From Myxococcus dinghuensis (GTDB lineage Bacteria > Myxococcota > Myxococcia > Myxococcales > Myxococcaceae), in assembly GCF_024198235.1 (NCBI RefSeq), contig NZ_JAKCFB010000017.1, forward strand, positions 62,001-126,000: a stretch of 64,000 nucleotides of DNA. The letters run 5' to 3'. Below are positions 38,758 through 56,569 of this stretch, one piece after another (position 1 is the first letter of the stretch; every line of letters begins with the position of its first letter). The translations under genes were made by a program, and so were the position numbers. Below the pieces are notes generated by a model. The model was not told the origin of the DNA. It saw only the letters and a list, made by a program, of their open reading frames with translations, and did not search any database.

Positions 38758-39804
38758 ATGTCATCCAATGCAATATCAGTCGCGACACCCGGTCTGGAGA
38801 CTTCGGCGGACGCCGTGAGGCTCCTGGAATCCTCGTGCAGACCGCCGTTCTACTCACGGCGGAGTCTCCAGGAACTCATGGAGACGGCGGAGACGCTGCC
38901 CACCCTCCTCTCGTTGAGCCACATGTTCGAGCGCCCCATGCGCGGGGGGGAGCACCCGGTCGATTTCTTCCTCTGGCTTTCGGCGAAGGGGCGGCGAGAC
39001 GTGCTGGCGGGGACCCACGCGGGCCTTCCCGCCACGTTCCATGACCAGGAGTCCTGGAAGCGGATTCGCGACTTCGCCCGAGGCTGGGTGGACGAGACCT
39101 CTCCCCTGCACGAGGTCTGCTCCGTCTGGCTCGAGTTCGACGTCCGCGGCCGGCCGACGGGGGTTCCCACGCCGCTGATCTTCTTCACCGTCGAACCCCA
39201 TGTCTCCCCGGGGCCCGCGCTGGAGCTGCTCCAGCCCCGGTCCTTTGCCTCTCCGGAGTTGGCGAACCTGCGCCGCTGCTGGGATGCCATTCCCGCGACC
39301 TGCCGCTACCGCACGGTCGGCGTCCTCTACTCGCGGCCCACGGAGGCCCTGCGCCTCATCCTGATACTGCGGCCGGACGAGGCGTTCTCCTACCTGGAGC
39401 GGATCGGCTGGCCGGGCTCGCCGGCGAAGCTGCACCAGCGGATGGCGCGGTTCCTGCGTTTCCACTCGGAGATCGCGCTGCACGTCGATGTCCACCCCGA
39501 CGGTGTGCAACCCCAGGTGGGGATGGAGATCTACGTAGACGAGGACGCGATGTATCGAGGACGGGGAGGGGACTGCAGGCCCCTGCTCGACCTCACCGTC
39601 GAGGAGTCGCTGTGCACGCCAGGCATCCGCGACGCGCTCGCCGTGTGGCCCGGCACCGACACCGTGGGTCTGTCCGATGGGAGCGTGGTGCGGGTGGAGC
39701 GCATGTTCCACCACGTGAAGGTCGTGAGCCAGTTGGACCTGAGCCTTCAGGCCAAAGCGTATACCACCGCGGAGTACGAGGTGAGCCCGCCATGGAACCG
39801 GTAG
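38758..39804 (+). CDS. Conserved unknown, paralogue A of the RiPP locus
   Basis: 348 residues with the ATG at 38758, preceded by GGGGAAG. No recognised family, but it is clearly homologous to the protein at 41883-42929, also 348 residues. Shared blocks are WLEFD, RPTEALRL with PDEAFSYLERIGWPG, HVDVHPDGVQPQVGMEIY, ESLCTPGIRDALAVWPG and HHVKVV...QAKAY. The alternation of strands and helices is compatible with an ABBA-type (aromatic prenyltransferase) barrel, which would fit a locus with its own prenyl diphosphate synthase, but I see no diagnostic motif. The stop lies 13 bases inside the oxygenase gene, so the two are translationally coupled. Confidence 0.6.
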   Translation: MSSNAISVATPGLETSADAVRLLESSCRPPFYSRRSLQELMETAETLPTLLSLSHMFERPMRGGEHPVDFFLWLSAKGRRDVLAGTHAGLPATFHDQESWKRIRDFARGWVDETSPLHEVCSVWLEFDVRGRPTGVPTPLIFFTVEPHVSPGPALELLQPRSFASPELANLRRCWDAIPATCRYRTVGVLYSRPTEALRLILILRPDEAFSYLERIGWPGSPAKLHQRMARFLRFHSEIALHVDVHPDGVQPQVGMEIYVDEDAMYRGRGGDCRPLLDLTVEESLCTPGIRDALAVWPGTDTVGLSDGSVVRVERMFHHVKVVSQLDLSLQAKAYTTAEYEVSPPWNR

Positions 39805-40643
39805 CCCGAGCAGATTGGTTCAAGTTCCGCTCCGTCGACTTCACGCAGCTCGACGCCCTGGAGGACTGCCTGGACGCGTTCACGGCGCGGACCCTCGATG
39901 GCGTGGTGATTCGACGGGTCTATCCCGAGGAGTACATGCGGGAGATCAGCGCACGCATCGAGCGACACGAGCCGCCGTTCCATGTCTTTCCTCGGGTGGC
40001 CGACCCCCTCAGGGCCCGCCAGGGGAAACACCTGTATGGCATCACCCTGGTGGCCGCCCCCCGTGACCTGTCGGAGTACTTCCGCGTGGCGGAGGGCTTT
40101 CGCTCCCATTGCCGGGAGCTCTTCCTGGATGGCGCCGACTATGAGGCGCGTCTGAAGTCCATCTTCGAGGTGCTCGGGGGGGGCCGCCCGGTCGAACTCC
40201 CGCGCAATCCGGATGGGCAGGGGTACATGCCCGCCACCATCCGGATCCTCCCCGCGGGCGCCGCCATCGACCTCCATTGTGACAACAACCTCAGTCACCA
40301 TCCCTCCTACACGCACCTGAAGACGGTCTGTGACGTGAACGACCAGCTCAGCTTCTTCCTGACGCTCAACGCACCGGGTAGTGGTGGCGAGCTGGTTGTC
40401 TATTCGCGCCGCTGGTCGGACTCGGACGACGTGGAGACCCAGTACGTCGTGAGCAAGGACGCGTCCATGGTCGAAGGCTGCGAGTCGCTCGCCCTCAAGC
40501 CTGGGCCCGGGGACCTCATCCTCTTCGCGGGCGGGCGCATCTACCACCGCGTCGCTCCGACGGAAGGAAATCGTCCGCGCTATACCATCGGTGGGTTCCT
40601 GGCCCGGGCGAATGAGGGCCGGGCGCTCTACTACTGGAGCTGA
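39792..40643 (+). CDS. 2-oxoglutarate/Fe(II) oxygenase (prolyl-hydroxylase-like)
   Basis: 283 residues. The double-stranded beta-helix core carries the iron triad: HCD (His162, Asp164) in IDLHCDNN and His252 in RIYHRVAPTEG, followed by an Arg in RPRYTIGGFLA that would bind the 2-oxoglutarate carboxylate. GSGGELVVYSRRW is typical of the prolyl 4-hydroxylase-like branch. It overlaps paralogue A by 13 bases and lies 1 kb upstream of the precursor gene. Probable job: hydroxylation or desaturation of a residue in the RiPP core, as inferred from location only. Confidence 0.82.
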   Translation: MEPVARADWFKFRSVDFTQLDALEDCLDAFTARTLDGVVIRRVYPEEYMREISARIERHEPPFHVFPRVADPLRARQGKHLYGITLVAAPRDLSEYFRVAEGFRSHCRELFLDGADYEARLKSIFEVLGGGRPVELPRNPDGQGYMPATIRILPAGAAIDLHCDNNLSHHPSYTHLKTVCDVNDQLSFFLTLNAPGSGGELVVYSRRWSDSDDVETQYVVSKDASMVEGCESLALKPGPGDLILFAGGRIYHRVAPTEGNRPRYTIGGFLARANEGRALYYWS

Positions 40644-40833
40644 GGGCGTCGCGACTGCCTCTGGCGGTGTGTGTGAATGCGGAAAGGGAATGACTCACGA
40701 GGTTGAGCAGGCATACACGGAACGAGTGAGTTGTGCTGTTCAGTTTCGTCGCGGACGTCCGACCCGAGGGCAGGCAGGAACTCCTCCCGAGTTGTGTGAG
40801 TATGCATTGCGTCAGGAATGGTTGTGATTGATG

Positions 40834-40891
40834 CCCGTTCCTGAGTCAGCCTTCAGTGCGTCTGTCTGGGTTCCTGCGAAGAAGGAACGGG
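40834..40891 (+). promoter_or_regulatory. Leader hairpin covering the ribosome site of the DUF697-like gene
   Basis: CCCGTTCCT (40834-40842) and AGGAACGGG (40883-40891) are perfectly complementary nine-base arms with a 40-base loop. The downstream arm is the Shine-Dalgarno region of the ATG at 40902, so folding would hide it. The 258-base gap (40644-40901) is of lower GC and otherwise holds no gene. Confidence 0.45.
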
Positions 40892-40901
40892 AGCGATTGC
40901 C

Positions 40902-41405
40902 ATGGAAGAGACGGCGAAGCTGGAGGCTCGAGAGGTTCAGGCGCGCGATATCGTCAAGAAGTACTCCCTGTGGGCGATGGGCGCGGGCGCGCTCCCCGTC
41001 CCGGGGCTGGACATCGCGACGTTCACGCTCATCCAACTGGGGATGATGCGTGAGCTGGCGGAGCTCCATGCCGTGCCATTCCACGAGCAGCGTGCCAAGG
41101 GGGTGATCGCGGCGTTGATCGGCGCGTCCTCGGCCACGCTGCTGGGGCGTCCGCTGGTGTTCAGCCTGTTGAAGGGGGTTCCGGTCATCGGTTCCACGGC
41201 GGGCGTCCTGTCCGGTGCCGTGTCGATGGCGGCGCTCTCCCGCGCCATCGGTCGCCTCTTCATCCAGCATTTCGAGACAGGGGGCACCCTGCTCTCGTTC
41301 GATGCGAAGGCCATGCGCGCTCACTTCGTGCGTGAGTTCGAGAAGAACGAGGGCGCGCGGGGGAGGGCCTCCACGCCTCCTCCCGTCCAGGATTCATCCG
41401 TGTGA
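40902..41405 (+). CDS. DUF697-like membrane-associated protein
   Basis: 167 residues. The N-terminal helix (AREVQARDIVKKYSLWAMGAG) leads to two hydrophobic, Gly-rich segments (ALPVPGLDIATFTLIQLGMM and VIGSTAGVLSGAVSMAALS), the pattern of DUF697 proteins, which are found near GTPases or as stand-alone membrane proteins of unknown role. The C-terminus is polar. It lies between the 2OG oxygenase and the RiPP precursor on the same strand but is followed by two hairpins, so it may be a separate unit. A role in self-protection is conceivable; there is no direct sign of it. Confidence 0.65.
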   Translation: MEETAKLEAREVQARDIVKKYSLWAMGAGALPVPGLDIATFTLIQLGMMRELAELHAVPFHEQRAKGVIAALIGASSATLLGRPLVFSLLKGVPVIGSTAGVLSGAVSMAALSRAIGRLFIQHFETGGTLLSFDAKAMRAHFVREFEKNEGARGRASTPPPVQDSSV

Positions 41406-41415
41406 AGCAATCACT

Positions 41416-41455
41416 GGCGGCGGACGACGCCGCCGGGCCGTGAAGGACGCGGCCC
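41416..41455 (+). terminator. Two tandem hairpins between the DUF697-like gene and the precursor
   Basis: GGCGGCG-gacga-CGCCGCC (41416-41434) is a perfect seven-base stem, directly followed by GGGCCG...CGGCCC (41435-41455). They start 11 bases after the stop codon. No T-run follows, so these may act with Rho or as a leader structure. Confidence 0.4.
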
Positions 41456-41606
41456 GAGAGTCTTGTGTCTGGCGGAGCGACACCGGGGGCCCTGCGCCCC
41501 GGACGCCGTCTGTCTTCTCGAGACGGCTCCACGTCGCGTGTCACCTGGTCCCCGCCGGGCACTATCGGCGCAGTACCCGCGGTACGTGCTGCTGCACGAA
41601 CCAAAC

Positions 41607-41614
41607 AGGAGGAG
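41607..41614 (+). promoter_or_regulatory. Strong ribosome-binding site of the precursor gene
   Basis: AGGAGGAG ends seven bases before the ATG at 41622. It is the best Shine-Dalgarno in the locus and fixes the precursor start, ruling out the longer in-frame reading that begins at 41463. Confidence 0.8.
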
Positions 41615-41621
41615 TACGGAC

Positions 41622-41750
41622 ATGGAGAACAACCACGAGACGCAGCAGGTCGACGTGAACACCCAGCCGGCCGATCAGGAGCTGACCGACGAGCAGCTCC
41701 TGCAGATGGCCGAGGGTTCCTGCACCTGGGGAGCCAACTGCGGCAAGTAG
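41622..41750 (+). CDS. RiPP precursor peptide (lanthipeptide-type)
   Basis: 42 residues. The leader is acidic and Gln/Asn-rich and ends in ELTDEQLLQMAEGS, which matches the amphipathic 'L-[ST]-[DE]-E-x-L...G-[GAS]' end of class II and Nif11-type leaders. The likely core is CTWGANCGK (residues 34-42), or SCTWGANCGK if cleavage follows Gly32. It has only Ser33 and Thr35 as dehydratable residues, Cys34 and Cys40 as nucleophiles, and one Trp. A Thr35-Cys40 methyllanthionine ring (TWGANC) is the simplest product. It is the first gene of the operon that holds LanM and has the strongest ribosome site. Confidence 0.85.
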   Translation: MENNHETQQVDVNTQPADQELTDEQLLQMAEGSCTWGANCGK

Positions 41751-41763
41751 CCACCGGGCCGCA
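41739..41763 (+). terminator. Weak hairpin at the precursor stop codon
   Basis: TGCGGC (41739-41744) pairs with GCCGCA (41758-41763), straddling the TAG. It could partly stop transcription or protect the 3' end so that precursor mRNA exceeds enzyme mRNA, a common RiPP design. No T-run follows. Confidence 0.35.
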
Positions 41764-41882
41764 ATAGAACCCCGAACACAGGAGATGGGACGGCGACATT
41801 CCGCGGGAGCAGGCCCCGAGAAGTGCGTCATGGGGCTGTCGTTGGCGGTGGCTCCTGTTCGTTGACGTCCTTCACCGGCGCC

Positions 41883-42929
41883 ATGGAACCTTCGTTGGAT
41901 TCATCGTTGGAACGAGTGGAGTCTCTGCTCCCTTCGTTGCTCATGTCGCCGGTGAGCTTCTCCCGTATCAGGGGAGTCGCGCGGCTGTTGCCCCGGTCCA
42001 TGGCGGACTTCCTGGGCTTCGAGTGCCGCTTGGGAGAGGGGAATTCACAGACGGACTGCGCCATCAACCTCACGGCGGACGGCGCCCGCTTCCTGGCCGG
42101 ACACCATGACCAGCAGGTTCCGGACGCGCTGCGGACGGAGAGCTGGCGGCGCGTGCAACGCTTCTATCGCGCCTGGGGAGAGACTCGGGAGCCCGCCTAC
42201 GTGGACGCGGGCGCGACGTGGTTGGAGTTCGACTCCACCTCGGACGAGCCCAGGCCCAACCTCCTCTTCGGGTACTGGCCTGGGAAGAAGGACATCCGCC
42301 GGCCGCTCCCCTGGCTCGTGGAGTCCATCATCCCCATGTTGCTGGGCACTCCCGTCACCCAGGCGTTCCAGTCCCACCTGCTGCGCTGCTTCGACGCGTG
42401 TCCACCCGGTACGGATGACTTCCAGGTCGGGCTGATGATCGCCCGCCCCATCCAGGCCGTGCGGTTGTGTGTGTTCGACATCGCGCCAGACGCGGCGCCG
42501 GCCTACCTCGAGCGGATCGGTTGGAAGGGGCCGCTGGACGAGGTCCGCCACCTCCTCGAGGTGCTCGCGCCGCACGCGGACTTAATGGGGTTGCACCTGG
42601 ACGTGGGCGAGCAGCTCTACCCTCAACTGGGACTCGAGCCGGGGTTCGTCGCCGGCCCCTGGGCGCGCCAGCCGCACCTCGAGCCCCGCTGGCATCGCCA
42701 GTTCGAGCAGCTCGTGCGCCTGGGGCTGTGTACGCCCGCCAAGCGCGAGGCCTTGATGCGCTGGGTGGGCCATCAGCGGGCGCCGGTGGGGTCGAGGGAC
42801 GAGGACCTCGTGCTGCTGCGCGGGTTGAGTCACATGAAGGTCGTCCTGCGCGCGGGCGCTCCTTCCCAGGCGAAGGCCTACTTCGGCATCGCGCACCGGC
42901 CGCTCATGGCCGTGGATGGGGCGGTGTGA
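41883..42929 (+). CDS. Conserved unknown, paralogue B of the RiPP locus
   Basis: 348 residues from the ATG at 41883, though no good ribosome site precedes it and a GTG at 41823 is an alternative. Homologous to the 38758-39804 protein: WLEFD, ARPIQAVRL with PDAAPAYLERIGWKG, LHLDVGEQLYPQLGLE, RLGLCTPAKREALMRWVG and SHMKVV...SQAKAYF. No signal peptide or membrane helix. Having two diverged copies flanking the precursor suggests two related but distinct functions, for example enzyme and partner or two substrates. An ABBA-fold prenyltransferase is a hypothesis only. Confidence 0.6.
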   Translation: MEPSLDSSLERVESLLPSLLMSPVSFSRIRGVARLLPRSMADFLGFECRLGEGNSQTDCAINLTADGARFLAGHHDQQVPDALRTESWRRVQRFYRAWGETREPAYVDAGATWLEFDSTSDEPRPNLLFGYWPGKKDIRRPLPWLVESIIPMLLGTPVTQAFQSHLLRCFDACPPGTDDFQVGLMIARPIQAVRLCVFDIAPDAAPAYLERIGWKGPLDEVRHLLEVLAPHADLMGLHLDVGEQLYPQLGLEPGFVAGPWARQPHLEPRWHRQFEQLVRLGLCTPAKREALMRWVGHQRAPVGSRDEDLVLLRGLSHMKVVLRAGAPSQAKAYFGIAHRPLMAVDGAV

Positions 42930-42932
42930 GCC

Positions 42933-44042
42933 ATGGCGACCTCGGACCCGCGCACCCTGGAGGCCAGCGCCGAGGCGGCGCTCGGCTTCTTGTTGGAAGC
43001 CCAGGACGCGAGGGGGGCGTGGACGGACTTCATGCTCCCGGCCACCCAGAGCGATGTCTGGGTCAGCGGCTTCGTGGGCACGGTGCTCGCGGGCCTGGTC
43101 GAACCCGCCGCGCGCAGGGCCGCGGAGGCCGCCTGGCGGTATCTCGAGGGCGTGGACGGGCAGGGCGGTGGCTGGAGCTACAACGCCTGGGTCCCAGGAG
43201 ATGCCGACAGCACGCTCTGGGGATTGAGGCTGGCGGAGGCGTTGGGGACGGGTGACTCGGCGCGGGCCCGGCTCGCGGGGGACTTCCTGGCGCGGCACCT
43301 GCGCGAGGACGGCGGCCTGGCGACGTATGCCTCGGACGAGGACGTGCGGGACTACATCGGGTTGCCGCCGGAGGTCTCCTTCCAGGGCTGGACGCACTCG
43401 CATGTCTGCGTGAGCGCCGCGGGGGCCAACCTCTCCACCCACCGCGCGAGGCTGGGCGCGTTCCTGCTGCGGACCCAGGATGCGCGGGGACACTGGCCCG
43501 CGTACTGGTGGTTCGACGAGGAGTACTCCACCGCGGAGGCGGTGGCGGCGCTGACGGGGGTGGCGGACGCGGTGGCGTCTCCCTCGGAGCGGGCCGCCCG
43601 GCTCGAGCGCGCCGCCGCGTGGGCTCTGGAGCGCGTGGCGCGCCACGTGGAGTTCGAGGGCCCGCGCCCCCCGTCGTTCGCGTTGGCCCAGGCGCTGCGC
43701 GTGGTCGCGCGCGCCCGTCCGTCACCTCGGCGATTGGAGGCCCTCCTCGGAGGGGTCTCCCGACTCTGTGCGTGGCAGACGCCCCGAGGGTGCTGGTCTC
43801 CCTCCGCCCGTCTGCGGGTGCCTCGCCCGGATGTGGTGGTGCCGGAGCCCTCCGCGCCGTGGACGCTCTGGAGGGGCGCGCCGCCCGACATCTCCTCGGT
43901 GGAGGACATCCTCCGGCACACCTTCACCAACTACTCCCTGGACCTCCACGCCGTCTTCACGACGGCGACCGTGCTCCGTGCCTTGAACGAGGTGCGCGCG
44001 CTGCTCCTGGGTCCAGGCTCGCCATGGACGAGGACCTCATGA
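42933..44042 (+). CDS. Squalene-cyclase/prenyltransferase-repeat protein (terpene-cyclase-like)
   Basis: 369 residues, three bases after paralogue B. Repeated QW-like motifs (LLEAQDARGAWTDF, RTQDARGHWPAYWW, AWQTPRGCWSPSA) mark the alpha/alpha-barrel of squalene-hopene cyclase and protein prenyltransferase beta subunits. A DADST motif (Asp90, Asp92) replaces the DxDDT acid motif of class II cyclases, keeping the first two Asp but with Ser for the third. At 369 residues it has one barrel rather than the two of full cyclases. It might cyclise an isoprenoid, bind one, or have become a scaffold. Its stop overlaps the PhyH start. Confidence 0.72.
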   Translation: MATSDPRTLEASAEAALGFLLEAQDARGAWTDFMLPATQSDVWVSGFVGTVLAGLVEPAARRAAEAAWRYLEGVDGQGGGWSYNAWVPGDADSTLWGLRLAEALGTGDSARARLAGDFLARHLREDGGLATYASDEDVRDYIGLPPEVSFQGWTHSHVCVSAAGANLSTHRARLGAFLLRTQDARGHWPAYWWFDEEYSTAEAVAALTGVADAVASPSERAARLERAAAWALERVARHVEFEGPRPPSFALAQALRVVARARPSPRRLEALLGGVSRLCAWQTPRGCWSPSARLRVPRPDVVVPEPSAPWTLWRGAPPDISSVEDILRHTFTNYSLDLHAVFTTATVLRALNEVRALLLGPGSPWTRTS

Positions 44043-44848
44043 CCGGACTGCCGGAACTCCACCCGCGGCGGGCGTCGACCGAGGCGGAGGCGGAGGTGTT
44101 GCGCGCCACGGGCCATGTCCTGCTCCGGGACGTCTTCTCCCCGGAGGAGATCGCCGCCTACCGCCCCGCGCTGCGGGACTACATCCTGGACAAGCGGGAG
44201 CGGCTCACCGAGGGCGAGCGCAACCTGGGCGCGAGCCCGGAGAACACCCTCTTCAGCCTGGGGGACGCTCCACGGTCCGTGGCCGACTTCGTGACCGCGC
44301 CGCGGCTGGGGGCCATCGCGGCCCGGCTGCTCGGCGTCGACGCCGTGCGAATCCTCCACTTCTGCGGCTTCTTCAAGCCGGGCGGCGGGCCGCCCACGCC
44401 GTGGCATCAAGACCTGACCTTCATCCCGTTGGACAGCGATCGCGCGCTCTCCGCCTGGATACCGTTGATGGACGTCACCTCGGAGATGGGGGGACTGGTC
44501 TTCGCGGAGGGCTCGCATCACCAGGGCCATCAAGAGTCGTCGGCGGCGAGCCGCTTCCGGTTGGCGCGGAACGGGCCGATGAAGGCCGGAGACCTGTCGC
44601 TGCACATGGGGTGGACCCTGCATGCCGCCGGGGGCAACACGAGCACGGTGATGCGCGAGGCCGTCGCCGTGTGCCTCTACGCGGATGGGGCCCGGGTGAC
44701 GAGCGGGGACGGGCTCCCGTTCCGCCGCAGCCTCATGACGTCCTACTTCGCCGGGCTCCGCCCGGGAGACGTGGCCGCAGGGCCCATGAACCCCGTCGTC
44801 TTCCGGCGAAGCGGCCCGCCGGCCGACACGGAAGGAGCGCGCCGGTGA
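44039..44848 (+). CDS. PhyH-family Fe(II)/2-oxoglutarate dioxygenase 1
   Basis: 269 residues. I chose ATG 44039 (ATGA overlap with the previous stop, GAGG five bases ahead) over ATG 44024. The phytanoyl-CoA dioxygenase fold shows HxD in PTPWHQDLTF (His123, Asp125), the distal His195 in GWTLHAAGGN and an Arg in VMREAVAVCLY for 2-oxoglutarate. Bacterial relatives hydroxylate or chlorinate small molecules and peptides. With Asp rather than Gly/Ala at the second ligand it should be a hydroxylase, not a halogenase. It is paired with a second PhyH protein. Confidence 0.88.
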   Translation: MTGLPELHPRRASTEAEAEVLRATGHVLLRDVFSPEEIAAYRPALRDYILDKRERLTEGERNLGASPENTLFSLGDAPRSVADFVTAPRLGAIAARLLGVDAVRILHFCGFFKPGGGPPTPWHQDLTFIPLDSDRALSAWIPLMDVTSEMGGLVFAEGSHHQGHQESSAASRFRLARNGPMKAGDLSLHMGWTLHAAGGNTSTVMREAVAVCLYADGARVTSGDGLPFRRSLMTSYFAGLRPGDVAAGPMNPVVFRRSGPPADTEGARR

Positions 44849-45777
44849 ACGCACCCGTCATCCCCGAGGACCGTGGCCTCTCTCCTGGAGTCCGCTCCCT
44901 CGGGCTCCCCTCGCTCGAGGAGCCGCACACGCTGACACAGGCGTCGATCGAGACCTTCCGCCGCGACGGGCACGTCAAGCTGCCCGGGGTCCTGACCGCC
45001 GCGGAGATCGACGCCTACCGCCCGCACCTGAAGCGGGTGGTGGAGGTGCACAGCGCGGAGTCGCACGCCATGGAGCGCAAGGTGGCGGGCAGCGGGAAGA
45101 ACTGGATGTTCGTCAACAACCTGTGGACGCGGGACGACCTGGCCCGTCACTTCATCCAGAACCCGCGTCTGGCCCGGCTCGCGGCGGAGCTGCTGGGCGT
45201 GGAGGCGGTGCGGCTGTTCCGGGACCAGTCGTATTTCAAGAGCCCGGGCGGCTCCAACACGCCCTGGCATCAGGACTCCCGCTTCATGCCGCTCGACACG
45301 GACAAGATCGTCACCTTCTGGGTGCCGCTCACCGCCATCACCCCGGAGATGGCTCCGATGGGGTACGTGACGGGCTCCCATCAGGCCGGCTACCTGGGCA
45401 CCTCGAACGGCGACGACGAGTCGATGGACCGCTTCGAGGCGGAGCTGCGCGGCAAGGGCTTCCAGCTCGCCAACTACGGCTTCTTCGACGTGGGCGACGT
45501 CGCGGCGCACTGGGCCAGCACGCTGCACTCGTCCCGGACCAACGACGCGTCCATCCTTCGGGAGATCGTCGTCATCGTCTACTTCGCGGACGGGGCGCGG
45601 GTCGCTCCGGAGAAGCCCCTGGCGAAGACGGCCCATCCGTCCGAGTTCTACGCCAACGTCATCCAGCGCGAGAACCGGGCCACGTCGCTGCCGGGGTTGA
45701 AGCCGGGAGAGCTGGCCGCCGGACCGATGACGCCGCTGGTCTACAGCCGTTCGTGGGACGCGCCGCGTGCCCGCTGA
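44845..45777 (+). CDS. PhyH-family Fe(II)/2-oxoglutarate dioxygenase 2
   Basis: 310 residues from a GTG that overlaps the upstream stop (GTGA). Iron ligands are His142 and Asp144 in NTPWHQDSRF and His228 in ASTLHSSRTN, with LREIVVIVYF carrying the co-substrate Arg. It resembles its upstream neighbour (DGHV..PGV...EI.AYRP; G..AAGPM.P.V at the C-terminus) and arose by duplication, but has about 40 extra residues, partly an N-terminal extension. Same uncertainty over substrate. Confidence 0.88.
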   Translation: MNAPVIPEDRGLSPGVRSLGLPSLEEPHTLTQASIETFRRDGHVKLPGVLTAAEIDAYRPHLKRVVEVHSAESHAMERKVAGSGKNWMFVNNLWTRDDLARHFIQNPRLARLAAELLGVEAVRLFRDQSYFKSPGGSNTPWHQDSRFMPLDTDKIVTFWVPLTAITPEMAPMGYVTGSHQAGYLGTSNGDDESMDRFEAELRGKGFQLANYGFFDVGDVAAHWASTLHSSRTNDASILREIVVIVYFADGARVAPEKPLAKTAHPSEFYANVIQRENRATSLPGLKPGELAAGPMTPLVYSRSWDAPRAR

Positions 45778-45808
45778 GCCTGGACTCGAGGGGAAGGGAC
45801 CCAACGCG

Positions 45809-47041: not shown

Positions 47042-47044
47042 GGC

Positions 47045-48196: not shown

Positions 48197-51100
48197 GCGA
48201 GGCGCGCGAGGAGGAGGCCGTGGTGCGTCGGATCGCGGCGCGCGCCTCGACGCTCTGGGAGCGCATGGAGGGCGCCTTCGTCCCCGACGACGGACCGGAG
48301 AGTGTCCGGCTGGCGAGCGAGCGCCTCGGGCGGTGGCGCGACAAGGCGGCGGGCGGGGACGCGCGGCTGTTCCAGCAGCGGCTCGACTGGCTCGGCACCA
48401 CACCCAGGCAGGTGTTGCCCTGGCTGGGCGAGGTCCGGCTCGAGGGGGCGCTGCCCCCGTGGACGCGGACGTTCCGGCGGGCCATGGCGCTGCGACGGAC
48501 GGTGGGGAAGCGGACGCAGGGCAGCGCGCTTCCCTTCGTCGAGCTGCTGCGCCCCTTCGCGGAGGTCGCCAGGGAGCTGCTCGACCTCGAGTGCCATGCC
48601 CTGCTCACGGAAGCGGCCTTCGACGACCTGGTGGAGGACCTGCTCCACGAGTTGAGTCATGTCGCGGCGCCCGCCTTGCTCGCGGAGTTCGTGGCCTTCC
48701 GTTCGAGCCGGGGAGGGCGCGCGGAGCCCTCTTCCCGTGTGCTGTACGAGGCCTTCACCGCGCAGCAGCTCGGAGAGGGCCTGTGGACGTTCTTCACCGA
48801 CTACGCCGTGCTCGCGCGCCTGCTCTCGCGAGTCACCGAGCAGTGGGCGGCGCAGGTCGGTGAACTCGCCCGCGCCGTGAAGGCGGACCGCTGGGGGCTG
48901 CAGCGCCTCTTCACGCATGGGGCTCCGCTGGGACGCATCGCCTCCGTCCAATCCTCGCTCTCGGATCGACACCTGGGAGGCCGCACGGTCGCCCGCGTCA
49001 CGTTCGAAGGAGGGGCGCGCCTCTACTTCAAGCCTCGGGGCCTGGGCGTCGAGGTGGCCTGGTACGAGCTGCTCGAGGCGCTGAATGCGCGCGGGGGAGA
49101 CTTCCACCTCCTGCGGGTGCTCGACCGCGGCGCGTGGGGCTGGGTGGAGCCCGCGGTGCCCGCGCCCTGCGCGGATGCGGGAGAGCTTCGACGGTTCTAT
49201 GTCCGCTCGGGGATGTTGCTGGGCCTCCTCTACGTGCTCGAGGCCTCGGACTGCTTCTACGAGAACGTCGTCGCCGCGGGCGCCTTCCCCGTCCTCATCG
49301 ACACGGAGATGTTGATGCACCACGTCCCCCACCAGCGCCGGGACGGTGGGGCGGACGAAGCGCTCGCGCGGGACCTCGTCGTCGATTCCGTCTGTCGCGC
49401 GGGCTTCCTCCCCGCGTGGGACGTGGGGCCTCGGGGGGAGCGTGTCGACATCAGCGGGCTGGGGGCCACCGCGGGACAGGTGACCGGCTACCTGCGGAGG
49501 CAGTGGCATCACATCAACACCGATGCCATGGGATTGGAGCAGGTGCCCATCCGCTTGGAGGCGGAGGACCACCTGCCTCGACTCGGTGACGAGCGTCCGC
49601 GGGTCTCCGCGCACGCTGAAGCGCTCGTCGAGGGCTTCACCCGGATGTACCGGCAGCTCCGCGAGCATCGAAGGGAGCTGAGCCAGCCGGGCTCGCCGCT
49701 CGCGCGCCTGGCCTCCCAGGAGATTCGGTTCGTCTTCCATGCCTCGCGCATCTACGGGCTGTTGCTGAAGCGGCTCGGCGCGCCGAAGCACCTGCGCGTC
49801 GGCGTGGAGCGAAGCCTCGAGACGGACATCCTCAGCCGCTTCTACGTGGAATCGCCCGAGAAGGCCCGGTACTGGCCGCTGCTCGCGGCGGAGCTGGAGT
49901 CCCTCGAGCAGTTGGACCTTCCCTGCTTCAGGGCACGCGCGGACAGCCATTCGCTCACCCTCCCCACGGGGTACGTCCTGCCCGAGGCGTTCCTGGAGAG
50001 TGGCCGCGAGCGCGTGTGGCGCAAGCTCTCGCTCCTGGACGAGGCGGACCTGGCGTCCCAGGTGCGCTTCATCCACGCGGCGCTGAGCATGGGCGGCGCC
50101 TCCCGGGACCCCGCGTCCGCCTCGCGGTCCGGGCAGGAACCTCCTCGTTGCGACGAAGCGCCCCTGTCTCGCGAGGCGCTCGTCGCGGAGGCCGCCTCCA
50201 TCGCCGCCGGGCTGCGCGCGCGGTCCATCCCCGCGGCCGATGGTGGGGCCACGTGGCTCGCGCCTCGGCTGGCGCCCCACTCGGGGCAGCATCCCCTGAG
50301 CCCGCTGCGCCTGGACCTGTACGACGGCCTGGGAGGCATCGCGCTGTTCCACGCGGCGCTGGAGCACGTCTCCGGTACGGGCCGCGAGATGGCGCTCGCG
50401 GCCTTGTCCTCGTTGCGGCGGTTCGTGGCGTCGGCCACCCCGGAGCTCGCGGCGCAGGAGGGGTATCCCCTGGGCGCGGCCTCGGGCATCGGCTCCTTCC
50501 TCTACGTGCTGTGCCGGACCTCTTCGTTGTTGGGGGAACCCGCGCTCCTGGACGACGCCTCCCGGGCCGCGAGCCTCATCACCCCGGAGGTCATCGCGGC
50601 GGACGACCAGTTCGATACCGTGTCGGGCGCGGCGGGAGCCCTCCTGGGGTTGTTGGTCTTGCATCAGGCGACGGGGTTGGAGACGGCGTTGGAGCGGGCC
50701 CGTCGATGTGGCGCGCACCTGCTCGAACACCAGCGCCCCTGTGAGCCGGCGGGCGCGGCATGGTTCGCGAGGAAGGGACGACCACTGACGGGGATCGCTC
50801 ACGGCGCCGCGGGGATTGCCCTCGCGCTGCTGCGGCTGCACGCCGTGGTGGGGGACTCACGGCTGCGAGTCGCGGCGGAGCGAGCGTTGGCGTTCGAGGA
50901 TTCCGTCTTCGTCCCCTCGGAGGCAGGCTGGCCAGACTTCCGGCATGTCCGGGGGGGCGCGCCCTCGTTCACGAACACCTGGTGTCATGGGGCAGCTGGC
51001 GTGGGGCTCGCGCGCCTGTCGGGGCGGGCCGTCCTCGACTCCGTGGCGGTGCGGCGCGACATCGACGCCGCCGTCTCCCGCGTGAGGAAGCAGGGCTTGG

Positions 51101-51375
51101 GGGACCGGGACGGGGTGTGTTGTGGCCAGGCGGGTGTCATCGAGCTGCTCTTCTCGGCGGCACGCTCGAGTGCTGACGAGGGGCTCGAAGCGCTGGCGCT
51201 CCGCCAGGCCTCCGCGGTGGTGCGGCGGGCTCGGACGGGAGGCTACCGGTTCGCCGGGGTCGAGCAGGGCGGCTTCCTCGAGCCGGCGTTCTTCCAGGGG
51301 CTCTCGGGCATCGGCTACCAACTGCTGCGGCTCGCCTTCCCGGGCCGTCTTCCCTCGGTGCTCGTCTGGGAATGA
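48193..51375 (+). CDS. lanM: Class II lanthipeptide synthetase (LanM), CCG type
   Basis: 1,060 residues from a GTG overlapping the previous stop. The N-terminal kinase-like dehydratase (about 1-640) has KPR (Lys280-Arg282), an SDCFYEN catalytic loop (Asp353-Asn358) and IDTE (Asp370, Glu372). The loop's His, normally D-x-H-x-E-N, is Phe355. The elimination region reads RFVFHAS with Arg512 kept and Ser518 at the usual Thr. The C-terminal LanC-like cyclase (about 690-1060) has GIAHGAAG (His870), WCHG (Cys931) and CCG (Cys976, Cys977), so zinc would be bound by three Cys as in ProcM-clade enzymes. It should dehydrate Ser/Thr and add Cys in the precursor core. If the kinase loop is impaired, it might act mainly as a cyclase. 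Confidence 0.92.
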   Translation: MSEAREEEAVVRRIAARASTLWERMEGAFVPDDGPESVRLASERLGRWRDKAAGGDARLFQQRLDWLGTTPRQVLPWLGEVRLEGALPPWTRTFRRAMALRRTVGKRTQGSALPFVELLRPFAEVARELLDLECHALLTEAAFDDLVEDLLHELSHVAAPALLAEFVAFRSSRGGRAEPSSRVLYEAFTAQQLGEGLWTFFTDYAVLARLLSRVTEQWAAQVGELARAVKADRWGLQRLFTHGAPLGRIASVQSSLSDRHLGGRTVARVTFEGGARLYFKPRGLGVEVAWYELLEALNARGGDFHLLRVLDRGAWGWVEPAVPAPCADAGELRRFYVRSGMLLGLLYVLEASDCFYENVVAAGAFPVLIDTEMLMHHVPHQRRDGGADEALARDLVVDSVCRAGFLPAWDVGPRGERVDISGLGATAGQVTGYLRRQWHHINTDAMGLEQVPIRLEAEDHLPRLGDERPRVSAHAEALVEGFTRMYRQLREHRRELSQPGSPLARLASQEIRFVFHASRIYGLLLKRLGAPKHLRVGVERSLETDILSRFYVESPEKARYWPLLAAELESLEQLDLPCFRARADSHSLTLPTGYVLPEAFLESGRERVWRKLSLLDEADLASQVRFIHAALSMGGASRDPASASRSGQEPPRCDEAPLSREALVAEAASIAAGLRARSIPAADGGATWLAPRLAPHSGQHPLSPLRLDLYDGLGGIALFHAALEHVSGTGREMALAALSSLRRFVASATPELAAQEGYPLGAASGIGSFLYVLCRTSSLLGEPALLDDASRAASLITPEVIAADDQFDTVSGAAGALLGLLVLHQATGLETALERARRCGAHLLEHQRPCEPAGAAWFARKGRPLTGIAHGAAGIALALLRLHAVVGDSRLRVAAERALAFEDSVFVPSEAGWPDFRHVRGGAPSFTNTWCHGAAGVGLARLSGRAVLDSVAVRRDIDAAVSRVRKQGLGDRDGVCCGQAGVIELLFSAARSSADEGLEALALRQASAVVRRARTGGYRFAGVEQGGFLEPAFFQGLSGIGYQLLRLAFPGRLPSVLVWE

Positions 51376-51385
51376 GGGACGGCCC

Positions 51386-52840
51386 ATGGAGCGGAACGGC
51401 ATGATGGAGCGGCTCACTTCCTTCCTGGCCCGCACGCGGGGCCCGGTGTCCGGCGGCGACGAGGTCGTCGCGCAGGCCCGCGAGTTGCTGGAGCAGGCCT
51501 ATGTCCACCTGCCCGACGACGCGCTCACGGAGGTGGCGCCCCTGGGACGGCTGGAGGCGCTCCAACGCGCGCTGCCCTCGGAGCGGAGCCAGCTCCACCG
51601 GGAGCTGCTCGCGGTCTTCGCGCGACTGGGAGACCGCCACACCCACTGCGCCCTGCCCGAACCCTTCGCGAGCCACGTCGCGTTCCTGCCCTTCCTGGTG
51701 GGGGAGTTCCTGGAGGGGGAGTTCCCGCGCGTCACGGTGCTCGACTCCGCCGTGGAGGCGCTGGAGCGCGGAGACATCCTCGTCTCGTGGAATGGCGCCG
51801 CCCTGGCCGAGGTCCTCGGACGTCACCGGGCGTGGCAACACGGCGCCCATCCCGAGGCCCGCCACGCGAAGGCGGTGCAGACGCTGACCTTCCGACCCCT
51901 GTCGATGCTGCCTCCGCCCGATGAAGAGGCGGTCGTCCTGGAGTGCGTGTCCGCGCGCGGGATGCACAAGGAGGTCCGGCTGGTGTGGCAGGTGGCGGAC
52001 GCCGCGTGGCTCGCGCGGCACTTCGCCTCCTCCCTGAGCGGAGCCTCCGAGGTCCGCCTCGAGAACGAAGGCGCGCTTCTCGCGCGCCGGGTGGACACCT
52101 CGCGGGGGACGTTCGGCTACATCCGGGTGGACTCGTTCGCGGGGCGCCCCGAGGTCGTCCTGGAGCAGTTCACGCGGGCACTGACTGACATGCCCCACCA
52201 GGGCGTCATCCTGGACCTGCGGCGCTGCGAAGACGGAATCGTGCGGAGTGGGGAGCGGCTGCTCCAGCTCTTCACCTCGCGGAGGATCCAACCCCAGCCC
52301 TTCCAGTTCCGACTGACGCCGTTGACCACCTCGCTCGTCCGTTCGGTGCCAGCGCTCGCGGAGTGGCGAGGCGCCGTCGAGCGCGCTGCGGCGCAGGGGC
52401 GGACCTTCTCGGAGGCCTTGCCGCTGACGCCCGTGGCGGAGGCGAATGGACTGGGACGGAAGTACACGGGCGCGGTCGTGCTCCTCACGAGCGCGCTGAC
52501 GTACAGCACCGCGGAGATGTTCGCGGCGGGATTCCAGGACCACGGGATAGGGCGGGTGGTGGGGACGGCCGCGCGCACGGGTGGGGGCGGCGCGTCGCCA
52601 TGGCCGCAGAGCACGCTCTTCAAGCTCTCCGGCAGTGACGCCTTCCGCCCCCTGCCCGAGGGGCCGCGCTTTCGCGTCGCCGTCCGGAGGTGTCAGCGCG
52701 TGCATGCGCGGGCGGGCCTTCCGCTCGAGCGCGAGGGGGTGGTCCCCGACGTGCTCCACGCGCCGACGCGGGCGGATCTCCTCCACGGGGAGCGGGACCT
52801 GCTGGAGGTGGCCGGAGAGGTGCTGACAGGGATGCGGTAG
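51386..52840 (+). CDS. S41-family (C-terminal processing protease-like) peptidase
   Basis: 484 residues. The tail-specific-protease domain shows GTFGYIRVDSF, GVILDLRRCEDG and the nucleophile region LLTSALTYSTAEMF with Ser around residue 374; the usual Lys four residues later is not obvious, so the catalytic dyad is uncertain. A short PDZ-like segment (about 100-150: LERGDILVSWNGAAL) precedes it. No signal peptide, so it would act in the cytosol. In the absence of a C39 peptidase it is the best candidate in the window for removing the RiPP leader, by location only. Confidence 0.78.
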   Translation: MERNGMMERLTSFLARTRGPVSGGDEVVAQARELLEQAYVHLPDDALTEVAPLGRLEALQRALPSERSQLHRELLAVFARLGDRHTHCALPEPFASHVAFLPFLVGEFLEGEFPRVTVLDSAVEALERGDILVSWNGAALAEVLGRHRAWQHGAHPEARHAKAVQTLTFRPLSMLPPPDEEAVVLECVSARGMHKEVRLVWQVADAAWLARHFASSLSGASEVRLENEGALLARRVDTSRGTFGYIRVDSFAGRPEVVLEQFTRALTDMPHQGVILDLRRCEDGIVRSGERLLQLFTSRRIQPQPFQFRLTPLTTSLVRSVPALAEWRGAVERAAAQGRTFSEALPLTPVAEANGLGRKYTGAVVLLTSALTYSTAEMFAAGFQDHGIGRVVGTAARTGGGGASPWPQSTLFKLSGSDAFRPLPEGPRFRVAVRRCQRVHARAGLPLEREGVVPDVLHAPTRADLLHGERDLLEVAGEVLTGMR

Positions 52841-52869
52841 TCGCGACAACGAAAGGAAGGGGAGCGGGA

Positions 52870-53802
52870 ATGTCCGAAGCGAACTTGGCGGCGAGGGCGC
52901 ACGAGGTCTCGTCCAGCATCGACTTCCGGCGGCGGCTGCGCGAGCGGCAACAGCTCGTGACGCGGGCGCTGGACCAGCAGTTTCCTCCTGGCTCGGGCCC
53001 CCTGACGGCCGCCATCCGAGAGGCCCTCCTGGCGGATGGAAAGCGCCTGCGGCCCATCCTCTGCCTGGAGGCCTGTGAGTTCGTGGGGGGGAGCCTGGAG
53101 GCGGCGCTGCCCGCGGCCTGCGCCATCGAGATGATCCACAAGATGACGCTGGTGCACGACGACCTGCCGGCCATGGACGACGCGGAGACGCGCAACGGCC
53201 GACCCGCGCTGCACAAGGTGCATGGAGAGGCGCTCGCCATCCTCGCGGGGGATGCGATGCTGGTGCATGCGTTCGGCTTGCTGGCGTCCATCCGGGCGGT
53301 GCCCGCGGAGCGGGTGACGGAGGCCATCTCCCGTCTCTGCCAGGCGTTGGGCACCGCGGGGCTGGCGGGAGGACAGGCCCTGGACGTGCTCTCGCAGGCC
53401 GAGGACGTGACGCCCGAGAAGCTCGACCACGTCCATACCTGGAAGACGGCGAGCTTCTTCGAGGCGGCCATGGTCATCGGCGCGGAGGTGGGCGGCGCGG
53501 ACGCGTCCCAGGTCGAGGCGCTCGCCCGGTACGGGAAGCTGCTCGGCAGGGCGTTCCAGATCTCCGACGACCTCCTGGACGCCGGGGACGCGCGGACGGT
53601 GGGCAAGGGGGAGGTGACGAACTACGTCCAGCTCCACGGGGTGGAGCTCGCCCGGCGCAGGCTGCGCGAGCTGCTGGACCAGGCCGTCAAGGCGCTCGCC
53701 TCGTGCAAGGGGGGCACGCTCCCGCTGCTCGCGGGGCTCACGGAGCTCGTGTGGGAGCGCTCCTGGCGTCCGGCGGAGGGGCCTCATGGCAACGACACCT
53801 GA
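52870..53802 (+). CDS. Polyprenyl diphosphate synthase (IspA/FPP-GGPP type)
   Basis: 310 residues from the ATG at 52870. The first Asp-rich motif is DDLPAMDD (Asp97-Asp104, the four-residue-spaced bacterial IspA form) and the second is SDDLLDAGD (Asp233-Asp237). GKRLRP, a Gln in GGQALDVL and KTASFFEAA are also intact, so it should be an active C15/C20 prenyl diphosphate synthase rather than a ComQ-like degenerate one. Within a RiPP operon it would supply an isoprenyl donor. It overlaps the radical SAM gene by 17 bases. Confidence 0.9.
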   Translation: MSEANLAARAHEVSSSIDFRRRLRERQQLVTRALDQQFPPGSGPLTAAIREALLADGKRLRPILCLEACEFVGGSLEAALPAACAIEMIHKMTLVHDDLPAMDDAETRNGRPALHKVHGEALAILAGDAMLVHAFGLLASIRAVPAERVTEAISRLCQALGTAGLAGGQALDVLSQAEDVTPEKLDHVHTWKTASFFEAAMVIGAEVGGADASQVEALARYGKLLGRAFQISDDLLDAGDARTVGKGEVTNYVQLHGVELARRRLRELLDQAVKALASCKGGTLPLLAGLTELVWERSWRPAEGPHGNDT

Positions 53803-55816
53803 TGTGGCGTCGTACCGGTATGACGTCTGCCTGCTGTCGATGCCGTTCCCGGTGCTGAACCAGCCCTCGATGGCCTTGGGGTTGTTGAAGCCCGCCCTGA
53901 TACGCGCCGGGCTGACGGCGAAGACGTTCTACCCCTGCCTGTGGTTCGCGGAGGAGGTGGGGCTCGACGCCTACGTCGCCATCTGTGACAGCAAGCAGGA
54001 GTTCCTGGTGGGGGAGTGGATCTTCGCGGAGGCCGCCTTCCCCGGCTTCCATCCGGAGAGCGACGACTACCTGGAGCGCGTGCTGTCCGCGCCGGTGTCC
54101 CGTGGCCTCTTGAGCAAGAGCCGCTTCAGTGGCGACCCGCGCGCGGCGCTGCTCGCGGCGCGAAAGGCGGCCGGGGGCTTCGTCGAGCGGGTCGCCGCCC
54201 GGGTCGTGGCGACGCGGCCGCGCATCGTCGGATGTACCTCCACGTTCACCCAGCACTGTGCCTCGTTGGCGGTGCTCCGGAAGGTCCGCGAGCTGGCGCC
54301 GGACGTCATCACCGTCATGGGGGGCGCCAACTGCGAGGGGGACATGGGGGTGAGCGCGCGGCGCCATTTCCCCTGGGTGGACTTCGTCGTCTCCGGAGAA
54401 GGGGACGCGCTCTTCCCCGCGTTGTGTCAACGCATCCTGGAGCATGGGCGGGACATCCCGGCGCGGCTGTTGCCGGTGGGGGTCATCGGCGAGGCACACC
54501 TGCGCCTCCCCGAAGGTTCCCCGGCGCCGAGGGCCTCCGTGTCACGCATGGACACGACGCCCGTGCCGGACTTCGACGACTACTTCGAGGCGCTCGAGGC
54601 CTCGCCGCTGGCGCCCTTCATCTTCCCGGGGCTCGCGATGGAGACGTCGCGGGGGTGTTGGTGGGGCAAGAAGCACCACTGCACGTTCTGTGGACTGAAC
54701 GGCGGCAACATGGACTTCCGCTCCAAGAGCGCCAGTCGGGTCCTGGGGGAGCTGGCGGAGCTGTCCACGCGCTACGGCATCCGCAAGTTCAACATCGTCG
54801 ACAACATCATGGACCTCGCCTACATCCAGGAGCTGGCGCCGCACCTCGCCACGGAGACGCCCTACACGCTCTTCTTCGAGACGAAGGTCAACCTGAAGCG
54901 CTCGCAGCTGGAGCGGCTCGCCGCGGCGGGGATCCGCCGCCTCCAGCCGGGTGTCGAGAGCATGCACGACGAGATCCTCCGACGGGTGGACAAGGGGACC
55001 ACGGCGCTGCAGAACGTCCAACTGCTCAAGTGGGCGCGCGAGCTGGGCATCTTCATCACGTGGAACTTCCTGTGGGACGTGCCCGGGGAGCAGGACGCCT
55101 GGTACGGCGAGATGGCCGAGTGGTTGCCCTGGGTGACCCATCTCCAGCCTCCGGGCGTGGATCGCATCCAATTCCATCGCTTCAGTCCCTATCACCAGCG
55201 GCCCGCCAGCTTCGGGCTCGAACTGGAGCCGTACCCGCTCTACGCCCATGTCTATCCGCTCGCTCGCGAGGCGTTGGGGGAGCTGGCGTACTACTTCCAT
55301 GACGCCCGTCGGAGATCCGCGAAGGAGGAGCTGGAGCGGCGGCCCTTCCTGAAGCAGGTGATGCGGGAGATCGGCCGGTGGAACAAGCTGTGGAACCGCG
55401 GAGGTGGTGGTGGCACGGCGGAGGCGCCGGTGCTGCGGATGTTCGACGAGGGCGAGCGGCTGCTCCTGGTGGATACGCGGCCCTGTGCCCAGGCGCGCGA
55501 ACAGTTCCTCACCGGGCTCGCGAGGCAGATCTACCTCCAGTGTGATGGGATCCAGACCTCGAAGAGCCTGCATGAGGGGCTCGCGAGGCTTGGAGGCGAA
55601 GAGGTGCCGCGAGAGGAGGTGCAGGCCCTCCTGGACGACCTCGTGAGGCGCAAGCTGCTGCTGCGACAAGCGGATCGCTTCATCGCCCTGGCCTTGCGCG
55701 CGGTGTCGCGGATTCCAGACTCGGACGAGGACTTCCCCGGGGGCTACACGGACGTGGACCGTTGGCGCGAGAGCCTCGAGGAGGACGAAGGCGCGAGGTG
55801 GTCCCGGGCGTCATAG
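53786..55816 (+). CDS. RiPP-maturation radical SAM protein (TIGR03975-like)
   Basis: 676 residues. The N-terminal about 240 residues have a cobalamin-binding-like Rossmann region (VCLLSMPFPVLNQPSMALG, VTVMGGANCEGD-like segment). The radical SAM motif is C-x7-C-x2-C (Cys291, Cys299, Cys302) in CWWGKKHHCTFCGLNG, the form seen in RiPP-maturation radical SAM protein 1, followed by the SAM-binding barrel (KFNIVDNIMD, GIRRLQPGVESMH). The C-terminal about 180 residues may recognise the leader. Relatives work on Nif11-type precursors, which agrees with this leader. The reaction is unknown. Confidence 0.88.
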   Translation: MATTPDVASYRYDVCLLSMPFPVLNQPSMALGLLKPALIRAGLTAKTFYPCLWFAEEVGLDAYVAICDSKQEFLVGEWIFAEAAFPGFHPESDDYLERVLSAPVSRGLLSKSRFSGDPRAALLAARKAAGGFVERVAARVVATRPRIVGCTSTFTQHCASLAVLRKVRELAPDVITVMGGANCEGDMGVSARRHFPWVDFVVSGEGDALFPALCQRILEHGRDIPARLLPVGVIGEAHLRLPEGSPAPRASVSRMDTTPVPDFDDYFEALEASPLAPFIFPGLAMETSRGCWWGKKHHCTFCGLNGGNMDFRSKSASRVLGELAELSTRYGIRKFNIVDNIMDLAYIQELAPHLATETPYTLFFETKVNLKRSQLERLAAAGIRRLQPGVESMHDEILRRVDKGTTALQNVQLLKWARELGIFITWNFLWDVPGEQDAWYGEMAEWLPWVTHLQPPGVDRIQFHRFSPYHQRPASFGLELEPYPLYAHVYPLAREALGELAYYFHDARRRSAKEELERRPFLKQVMREIGRWNKLWNRGGGGGTAEAPVLRMFDEGERLLLVDTRPCAQAREQFLTGLARQIYLQCDGIQTSKSLHEGLARLGGEEVPREEVQALLDDLVRRKLLLRQADRFIALALRAVSRIPDSDEDFPGGYTDVDRWRESLEEDEGARWSRAS

Positions 55817-56568: not shown

Positions 56569-56569
56569 C

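Follow-up and report, generated by a model that had tools for sequence, protein, structure and literature searches.

A mobile gene cassette of Myxococcus dinghuensis that probably directs the synthesis of a tryptophan-terpenylated, heavily oxidised lanthipeptide

What could a lanthipeptide synthetase, a set of terpene enzymes and five oxygenases of the Fe(II)/2-oxoglutarate (2OG) type make together, if they work on one product at all? The question is raised by a gene run in a 64,000-nucleotide stretch of the Myxococcus dinghuensis genome (assembly GCF_024198235.1, contig NZ_JAKCFB010000017.1, positions 62,001 to 126,000), referred to here as the window and numbered from its first letter; the whole genome (G000) measures 10.4 Mb. 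An earlier note on this DNA had read the run as one pathway to a ribosomally synthesised and post-translationally modified peptide (RiPP) uniting lanthipeptide, isoprenoid and multi-oxygenase chemistry. The present analysis supports a single RiPP cassette, conserved as a unit at three genomic sites, and suggests that it is a mobile cassette that probably makes a lanthipeptide carrying a terpene on its tryptophan (Trp) and modified by extensive oxidation. The core peptide is identical in three species, two of the enzymes have a predicted prenyltransferase fold, a third is a homologue of the terpene cyclase MstE, and a single core Trp accompanies the prenyltransferase family wherever a precursor was recognised beside it.

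The genes named in the earlier note, namely the precursor, LanM, the TIGR03975 radical S-adenosylmethionine (SAM) gene, five oxygenases, an isoprenyl diphosphate synthase (IDS) homologue, the cyclase-like gene, an S41 peptidase and two paralogues of one family (A and B), are all present on the + strand. They overlap or nearly touch from 41883 to 55816, as was claimed, with junctions between paralogue B and the radical SAM gene that range from a 19-nt overlap to a 31-nt gap. Wider gaps of 132–365 nt precede paralogue A, the DUF697 gene, the precursor and paralogue B. The gene run stands as described, but its start does not: it had been placed at 38758, and the conserved block begins at about 34576, adding an ABC transporter and a beta-lactamase-fold hydrolase. 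A DUF697 protein (40902–41405) inside the block had been left off the list. The cassette contains 16 genes in about 21 kb:

34576–55816, + strand: whole conserved cassette, 16 genes, collinear in genomes G059 and G038
34705–36744, + strand: ABC transporter, probable exporter (PF00005, PF00664; weak N-terminal HMA_2 match below cut-off), inside the conserved block
36767–38392, + strand: beta-lactamase-fold serine hydrolase, D-aminopeptidase-like (PF00144, 186.3 bits)
38758–39804, + strand: paralogue A, ABBA-fold prenyltransferase candidate by predicted fold
39792–40643, + strand: WelO5-family 2OG/Fe(II) oxygenase with a hydroxylase-type HxD motif (PF22814, 265.2 bits)
40902–41405, + strand: small DUF697 protein (PF05128, E 1.7e-10), 83% and 67% identical in the other cassette copies
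41622–41750, + strand: precursor peptide, C-terminal 24 residues invariant across three species
41883–42929, + strand: paralogue B, ABBA-fold prenyltransferase candidate by predicted fold
42933–44042, + strand: MstE-like monodomain class II terpene cyclase with a DxDST motif (MstE 6sbb, E 2.8e-55)
44024–44848, + strand: PhyH-family oxygenase 1 (PF05721, E 8.2e-26), WHQD conserved
44845–45777, + strand: PhyH-family oxygenase 2 (PF05721, E 6.6e-22), WHQD conserved
45809–47041, + strand: JmjC_2 hydroxylase 1 (PF08007, E 1.5e-25), HFD conserved
47045–48196, + strand: JmjC_2 hydroxylase 2 (PF08007, E 1.3e-25), HFD conserved
48193–51375, + strand: class II lanthipeptide synthetase LanM with a divergent active site (TIGR03897, 754.8 bits)
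51386–52840, + strand: S41 peptidase, a possible protease for leader or core (PF03572, 57.1 bits; cut-off 24)
52870–53802, + strand: trans-IDS homologue, donor synthase or trans-IDS-like Trp prenyltransferase (PF00348, 155.8 bits)
53786–55816, + strand: B12-binding radical SAM RiPP C-methyltransferase (TIGR03975, 790.9 bits against a cut-off of 281.85), CX7CXXC conserved

Two other genomes carry the same block. G059:C1:1563475-1584685 is collinear with 34576–55816 at 88–89% DNA identity and G038:C1:5003663-5027806 with 34694–55771 at about 79–80%; every gene of the set is kept in the same order, with protein identities of 83–94% and 67–85%, respectively. The three carriers are three species from two genera. 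A search with LanM through 96 genomes of the organism's family gave close relatives in two of them, G059 (84%) and G038 (72%); the match ranked after these by score is 38% identical. Relatives of JmjC_2 hydroxylase 1 at E 1e-60 or better occur in the three cassette genomes only, among 195 of the phylum. The earlier note had made its proposal depend on conserved co-occurrence with LanM, and the block proved intact at all three sites. Its surroundings differ: the fetched flanks (about 12–14 kb on each side) gave no DNA match among the three genomes, and the flank in G038, judged from its translation, is a translation-gene neighbourhood. In the window, the block sits between carB and a desaturase gene, both present in all 27 genomes of the genus. 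The corresponding neighbourhoods of four relatives (G070, G059, G055 and G071) match the window up to 34357 at the latest and again no earlier than 58863, leaving about 24.5 kb that they do not share, and the cassette copy of G059 lies nearly 3 Mb from that genome's own carB by contig coordinates. A collinear block at three unrelated sites argues that the cassette is horizontally mobile and moves as a unit. The transporter and the hydrolase are very probably members, because both lie inside the conserved block and a close orthologue of the hydrolase (89%) was found, among the 27 genus genomes, in the cassette carrier G059 only; its next match by score is 41% identical, with short partial matches up to 48%.

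A tRNA gene as integration site was ruled out, the window holding none. The 20 direct and 18 inverted repeat families listed include no repeat linking both boundaries, and PLSDB contains no match for plasmid copies of the precursor. Between 34400 and 43000 no sigma-70-like promoters were found, and terminator-like sites number 4 against 2.6 expected. Directly after the cassette, on the − strand at 55840–57265, lies a toxin-immunity pair of the SitA6/SitI6 family (TIGR02269, TIGR02264); it falls inside the stretch absent from the four compared relatives, and the flanks fetched around the G059 and G038 copies contain no match to it. In G038 the WelO5-like and DUF697 genes are separated by about 3 kb of additional sequence without a match (L017, about 1050–4310), in which just three minus-strand open reading frames of 78–112 amino acids pass a filter on GC content at third codon positions.

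The precursor comprises 42 residues, MENNHETQQVDVNTQPADQELTDEQLLQMAEGSCTWGANCGK. Its leader ends in ELTDEQLLQMAEG and would be followed by the ten-residue core SCTWGANCGK, the cleavage point being our placement. Synonymous changes notwithstanding, the last 24 residues, core included, are the same in all three species; the variation lies in the N-terminal leader. The window and G059 copies differ synonymously at 7 codons and non-synonymously at another 7, and the latter all fall at leader positions 3–17. This pattern of substitution marks the peptide as real. Invariant in the core are two Cys, one Ser, one Thr and the single Trp.

Paralogues A and B had been described as a duplicated unknown. 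They are indeed duplicates, 32% identical to each other, and they now have a predicted fold. Neither matched a Pfam or NCBIfam family at E 0.1, 25 members of their family searched against Pfam gave just scattered single-member matches (best E 0.0042), and a family profile found no credible match in the PDB (best E 0.66). AlphaFold2 models built from three sequences reached a predicted local distance difference test (pLDDT) score of 75.5 and a predicted template modelling (pTM) score of 0.77 for A, and 74.2 and 0.79 for B. Every one of the 50 PDB matches that Foldseek listed for model A is an aromatic or peptide prenyltransferase, with CymD at the top (E 8e-6). For B, matches 1–44 of the 50 listed were of the same kind (best E 1.7e-4) and 45–50 were unrelated proteins at E 0.32 or worse; VIA-align of B returned prenyltransferases in all 50 listed, with CymD at Z 16.6, a root-mean-square deviation (rmsd) of 4.0 and 297 residues aligned. 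The fold shared by these structures is the ABBA fold. Nineteen columns are invariant across the 25 family members, including K331 and Y333; a KxY pair is typical of diphosphate binding in the ABBA fold. Two points weigh against the assignment: no sequence profile ties the family to known ABBA enzymes, and the models are moderate (pLDDT about 75 from three sequences), their Foldseek matches to prenyltransferases having TM scores of about 0.36–0.55 and rmsd values of 7–10. Despite these moderate scores the structural match lists are uniform, and it is the predicted fold that settles A and B as ABBA-fold prenyltransferase candidates.

What the precursors found beside the family have in common is Trp. 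Precursors at LanM loci were selected by a rule blind to Trp, which asked for a leader motif, at least two Cys after it and a ribosome-binding-like site. At 12 LanM loci with the ABBA family the rule gave a precursor at 11, and all 11 cores contain Trp; among 20 LanM loci that lack the family it again succeeded at 11, and Trp occurs in the core at two of these (p 0.0002, with many of the loci related). Nine of the 20 control loci and the family locus L034 yielded no precursor by the rule and were left out of the count. Two more Trp-containing precursors stand outside the 11, a second one at L045 that the rule missed and that of L051, SSCGWDSCN. The association extends to precursors of other types. 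At three loci (L046, L047 and L050) that hold an ABBA-family gene and an MstE-like cyclase with no LanM match, the peptide encoded between them is free of Cys and ends in TQAW[EQ] (SGGAQELSATQAWE or similar). Three loci encode the ABBA domain in fusion with another domain, and four precursors there end in DGW[IF]; in L038 and L048 they immediately follow the fused gene, in L049 the distance is about 6 kb, and radical SAM neighbours were confirmed at L038 and L049. Precursors beyond the rule were chosen by eye as leader-like open reading frames or by mutual similarity, not by Trp. All 17 core entries tallied contain exactly one Trp. The key support for a terpenylated Trp is this occurrence of a single core Trp beside the family, whether the context is lanthipeptide, Cys-free or radical-SAM, which suggests the residue as the acceptor.

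Several observations weigh against this reading. When the loci are collapsed by core type, a grouping of our own, the contrast shrinks to 4 of 4 versus 2 of 5, which is not significant (p 0.17). The control locus L071 (in G033, precursor at 9527–9721) has the core SCGWSSC, very like the family-linked cores, with no ABBA gene within its 16 kb. Of the family's 45 matches, 21 lie in loci where no precursor was looked for, and the inspected loci L052, L053 and L054 as well as the Amycolatopsis locus L034 yielded no recognisable one.

Further loci extend the picture of the family. A scan of genome contigs with alignment A1 found just one locus, L034 of the actinomycete Amycolatopsis vastitatis, where an ABBA-family gene directly precedes a LanM-like gene (9755–13972); the pairing is therefore not confined to the window's family. 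The window genome itself holds another LanM locus with the ABBA family (L037, G000:C114), its precursor ending in SCDWCSC, and a radical-SAM locus with the family (L038, G000:C45), its precursor ending in SDGWI. In G033 an ABBA gene and a cyclase lie about 120 kb from L071 on the same contig, and JmjC-family matches occur several kb from other ABBA–LanM loci, at the edges of L039, L040 and L041. The fused N-terminal domains of L038, L048, L049 and L031 were tried as MstE-like cyclases, but the comparisons did not show this (phmmer E 0.0036 at best, hhalign probability 6.7%). The domain of L038 has no PDB match, and a sub-threshold match to squalene-hopene cyclase appeared in L038 alone; these proteins are not counted as prenyltransferase-cyclase fusions.

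From these parts we infer a pathway: each reaction, the sequence of steps, how long the chain is and which atom accepts it. LanM would close a thioether ring in SCTWGANCGK, and one or both ABBA-fold enzymes would transfer a C15–C20 prenyl chain, from a donor supplied by the IDS homologue, onto the single Trp. Next, the chain would be folded into rings by the MstE-like class II cyclase, and the PhyH and WelO5-like enzymes may oxidise the terpene or the indole part. The JmjC pair and the B12 radical SAM methylase would act on peptide residues, the S41 peptidase and/or the beta-lactamase-fold hydrolase could remove the leader, and the ABC transporter, whose Pfam matches include no C39 peptidase domain, would export the product.

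The step most open to another assignment is that of the IDS homologue. The earlier note had called it an intact IspA-type synthase; that it is intact is not supported, its motifs being not fully canonical. All three orthologues retain the first aspartate-rich motif (FARM, DDLPAMD) and the second (SARM, DDLLD). The KT and GKRLRP motifs are present as well, and so is a Gln near the SARM, as it is in canonical enzymes too. The residue at the fifth position before the FARM is Met; an aromatic residue there is typical of bacterial farnesyl diphosphate (FPP) synthases. Two changes weigh against a working donor synthase. All three orthologues read RNG for RRG after the FARM, and in a gapped alignment their post-SARM loop is shortened and has lost the basic residue directly before Thr. 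The genome's four other polyprenyl synthases have RR and a basic residue at the position preceding Thr or one before it, and the five aligned chains of solved FPP or geranylgeranyl diphosphate (GGPP) synthases, apparently three enzymes, all read RRG. The protein could instead be a third peptide prenyltransferase, trans-IDS-like and Trp-specific as are ComQ, PalQ and the P domain of ChrPC, with one or both ABBA enzymes acting elsewhere or kept for leader binding and housekeeping synthases providing the donor, as the four other polyprenyl synthases could. Like ComQ and PalQ, it is an isoprenoid synthase-family protein beside a Trp-containing precursor with altered diphosphate-site residues. According to PMC13290415, Trp in RiPPs is modified by trans-IDS-like enzymes that carry a cyclase domain, and PMC10853753 reports that PalQ keeps its two SARM Asp and ComQ does not. 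Against this role stand the retained motifs, the intact SARM included, and the best NCBIfam matches, both under cut-off, to the CrtE-type GGPP synthase model (259.3 bits, cut-off 460) and the FPP synthase model (239 bits, cut-off 275). Its 16 matches include no ComQ-type model, although whether the library possesses one was not checked. A third prenyltransferase is the best surviving alternative, one we regard as unlikely, and we lean towards a donor synthase.

A weaker alternative concerns the ring. LanM is a genuine but unusual enzyme. It exceeds the cut-off of TIGR03897 (304) more than twofold, matches PF13575 and PF05147 above cut-off and aligns with LicM2 at E 1.7e-64. Its zinc motif is all-Cys; three-Cys zinc sites are found in ProcM-like enzymes. 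At the active site it reads DCFYEN where DxHxEN is expected, a change of the His seen in all three orthologues, HAS for RPT and CCG for CHG; among the 22 distinct motifs listed, DCF[YF]EN and CCG occur only in the three cassette LanMs. In CylM numbering, mapped by alignment and spacing, His349 has become Phe and Thr512 Ser, which counts against the main reading. Such an enzyme might no longer form lanthionine, but phosphorylate, dehydrate without cyclising or merely bind the leader, and the product would then be a prenylated non-lanthionine peptide. This seems improbable: by alignment to LicM2 and by motifs, most of the other dehydratase residues (K274, D347, N352, D364, D252, H254 and R506) and the zinc Cys are kept, and the two Cys, Ser and Thr of the core are invariant. 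Residue roles in CylM were taken from PMC4550811, which reports that H349A slows dehydration without stopping it, with almost full modification after 10 h. Formation of the thioether ring by LanM remains the preferred reading.

The prenyl chain might also be attached and stay linear, the MstE-like protein cyclising it partly or serving as a structural partner. One Thr of the MstE motif DxDTT is Ser in the window cyclase, which speaks for this alternative. However, the earlier description of this protein as squalene-cyclase-like can now be narrowed within the terpene cyclases to MstE, which it matches over its length (6sbb), with the prenylcyclase 6ij1 at E 1.2e-45, and five homologues, both orthologues and two distant ones among them, preserve the DxDST motif (residues 90–94). 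Ten loci in the 96 family genomes hold cyclase homologues, and by coordinates nine adjoin an ABBA-family gene, the exception being the locus in G063. We consider a linear chain somewhat less probable again than a LanM without lanthionine, and cyclisation is the reading we keep. With the predicted ABBA fold of A and B and the MstE-like cyclase, a terpene-derived group on the product, which the earlier note had called possible, becomes likely. That the locus instead houses two adjacent pathways, one to a small lanthipeptide and one to a separate terpenoid with no common product, is very improbable: the gaps of 132 and 216 nt around the precursor leave room for separate promoters, but the two chemistries are interleaved in gene order (ABBA, cyclase, PhyH, JmjC, LanM, S41, IDS, radical SAM) with overlaps, the block moves as one, and the ABBA family is associated with Trp across three precursor types.

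The five oxygenases comprise one WelO5-like, two PhyH and two JmjC_2 enzymes. The first, previously listed as a 2OG oxygenase, is indeed one and can be specified as a WelO5 homologue (E 2.1e-56 to WelO5 in the PDB). The HxG iron-binding motif of WelO5-type halogenases leaves room for chloride. All three orthologues have HCD in place of HxG, and, of the aligned chains, the WelO5-type 8aut reads HVG and 5iqu reads HVD. The change argues for hydroxylation rather than halogenation as the expected activity, and halogenation was ruled out on the HxD motif. PhyH 1 matches SnoK (E 5.5e-12) and, more weakly, the terpenoid hydroxylase 1-deoxypentalenic acid 11-beta-hydroxylase (E 1.3e-5). JmjC 1 resembles the NO66/MINA histidyl hydroxylases (NO66, E 3e-35). 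The radical SAM protein scores almost threefold over the cut-off of the TIGR03975 C-methyltransferase model.

How far does this gene set depart from known systems? The earlier note knew of no characterised RiPP pathway uniting all these enzyme types, but comparable systems are in print. RiPPs with polycyclic isoprenoid moieties, the products of the NctPC and ChrPC pathways, were reportedly described by Hubrich et al. in Chem in 2024. According to PMC13290415, NctPC and ChrPC place long prenyl chains on Trp and also cyclise them; for NctPC the chain is geranylgeranyl. A prenylated lanthipeptide is known from cyanobacteria, in which MppC geranylates Trp in a leader-dependent manner (PMC12715784). 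Polycyclic-isoprenoid RiPPs and prenylated lanthipeptides are thus already known, and the window holds a far more elaborate, unfused variant. As in NctPC and ChrPC, an ABBA-fold or trans-IDS-like prenyltransferase would act with a cyclase (MstE-like in NctPC, with a C20 donor reported) on a peptide Trp. There, however, the two activities are fused, whereas the window has separate genes at 41883–42929 and 42933–44042, with a doubled ABBA enzyme, a free cyclase, a separate IDS homologue, LanM, five oxygenases and a B12 radical SAM methylase in addition. The mpp pathway of Moorena producens (MppE, MppM, MppC) likewise combines a class II LanM with an ABBA prenyltransferase; its core Trp is prenylated, the ring-closed substrate is preferred and the leader is needed (PMC12715784). 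It differs in its long Nif11 leader, its geranyl group and the lack of any mention of a terpene cyclase in that paper, whereas the leader in the window would measure 32 residues if cleaved behind EG, and a terpene cyclase accompanies it together with many oxygenases.

The window cyclase shares the DxD[ST]T motif with MstE and is proposed to act on a peptide-borne chain. The oxygenase belongs to PF22814 together with WelO5; the WelO5 family tailors indole-terpenoids of the hapalindole type. Searches of an open-access library gave no paper combining WelO5, RiPP and lanthipeptide and, in titles and abstract openings, no description of this gene set, which may be described elsewhere. The locus is set apart by having its prenyltransferases and cyclase in separate genes, two ABBA enzymes, an IDS homologue in addition, and five oxygenases with a methylase that would act beside LanM.

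These parts suggest a broader interpretation, held tentatively and with rather more doubt than trust, in which the cassette is the ribosomal counterpart of the indole-terpenoid alkaloid pathways. The Trp indole of a decapeptide would be prenylated, perhaps doubly, by the two ABBA enzymes together with a trans-IDS-like enzyme turned to this use, the chain cyclised by a free-standing MstE-type enzyme, oxidised by the WelO5 homologue and the PhyH enzymes, and C-methylation added, all inside a thioether ring; a broad unnamed ABBA family would use the one Trp of each core to serve RiPPs of three unrelated classes.

For the family, alignment A2 provides a sequence handle on an unnamed group of prenyltransferases that would predict Trp-prenylated RiPPs. 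Its forms beside LanM, beside a cyclase and fused to other domains constitute a natural experiment on the coupling of prenylation and terpene cyclisation to different peptides, and the minimal loci L046, L047 and L050 are attractive small test systems. For the cassette itself, the sequence of the template is exactly known, so the mass and structure of the product are directly testable. If the proposed pathway is true, lanthionine rings, class II terpene cyclisation and multiple non-haem iron oxygenations, which are usually separate, would be joined on a ten-residue template.

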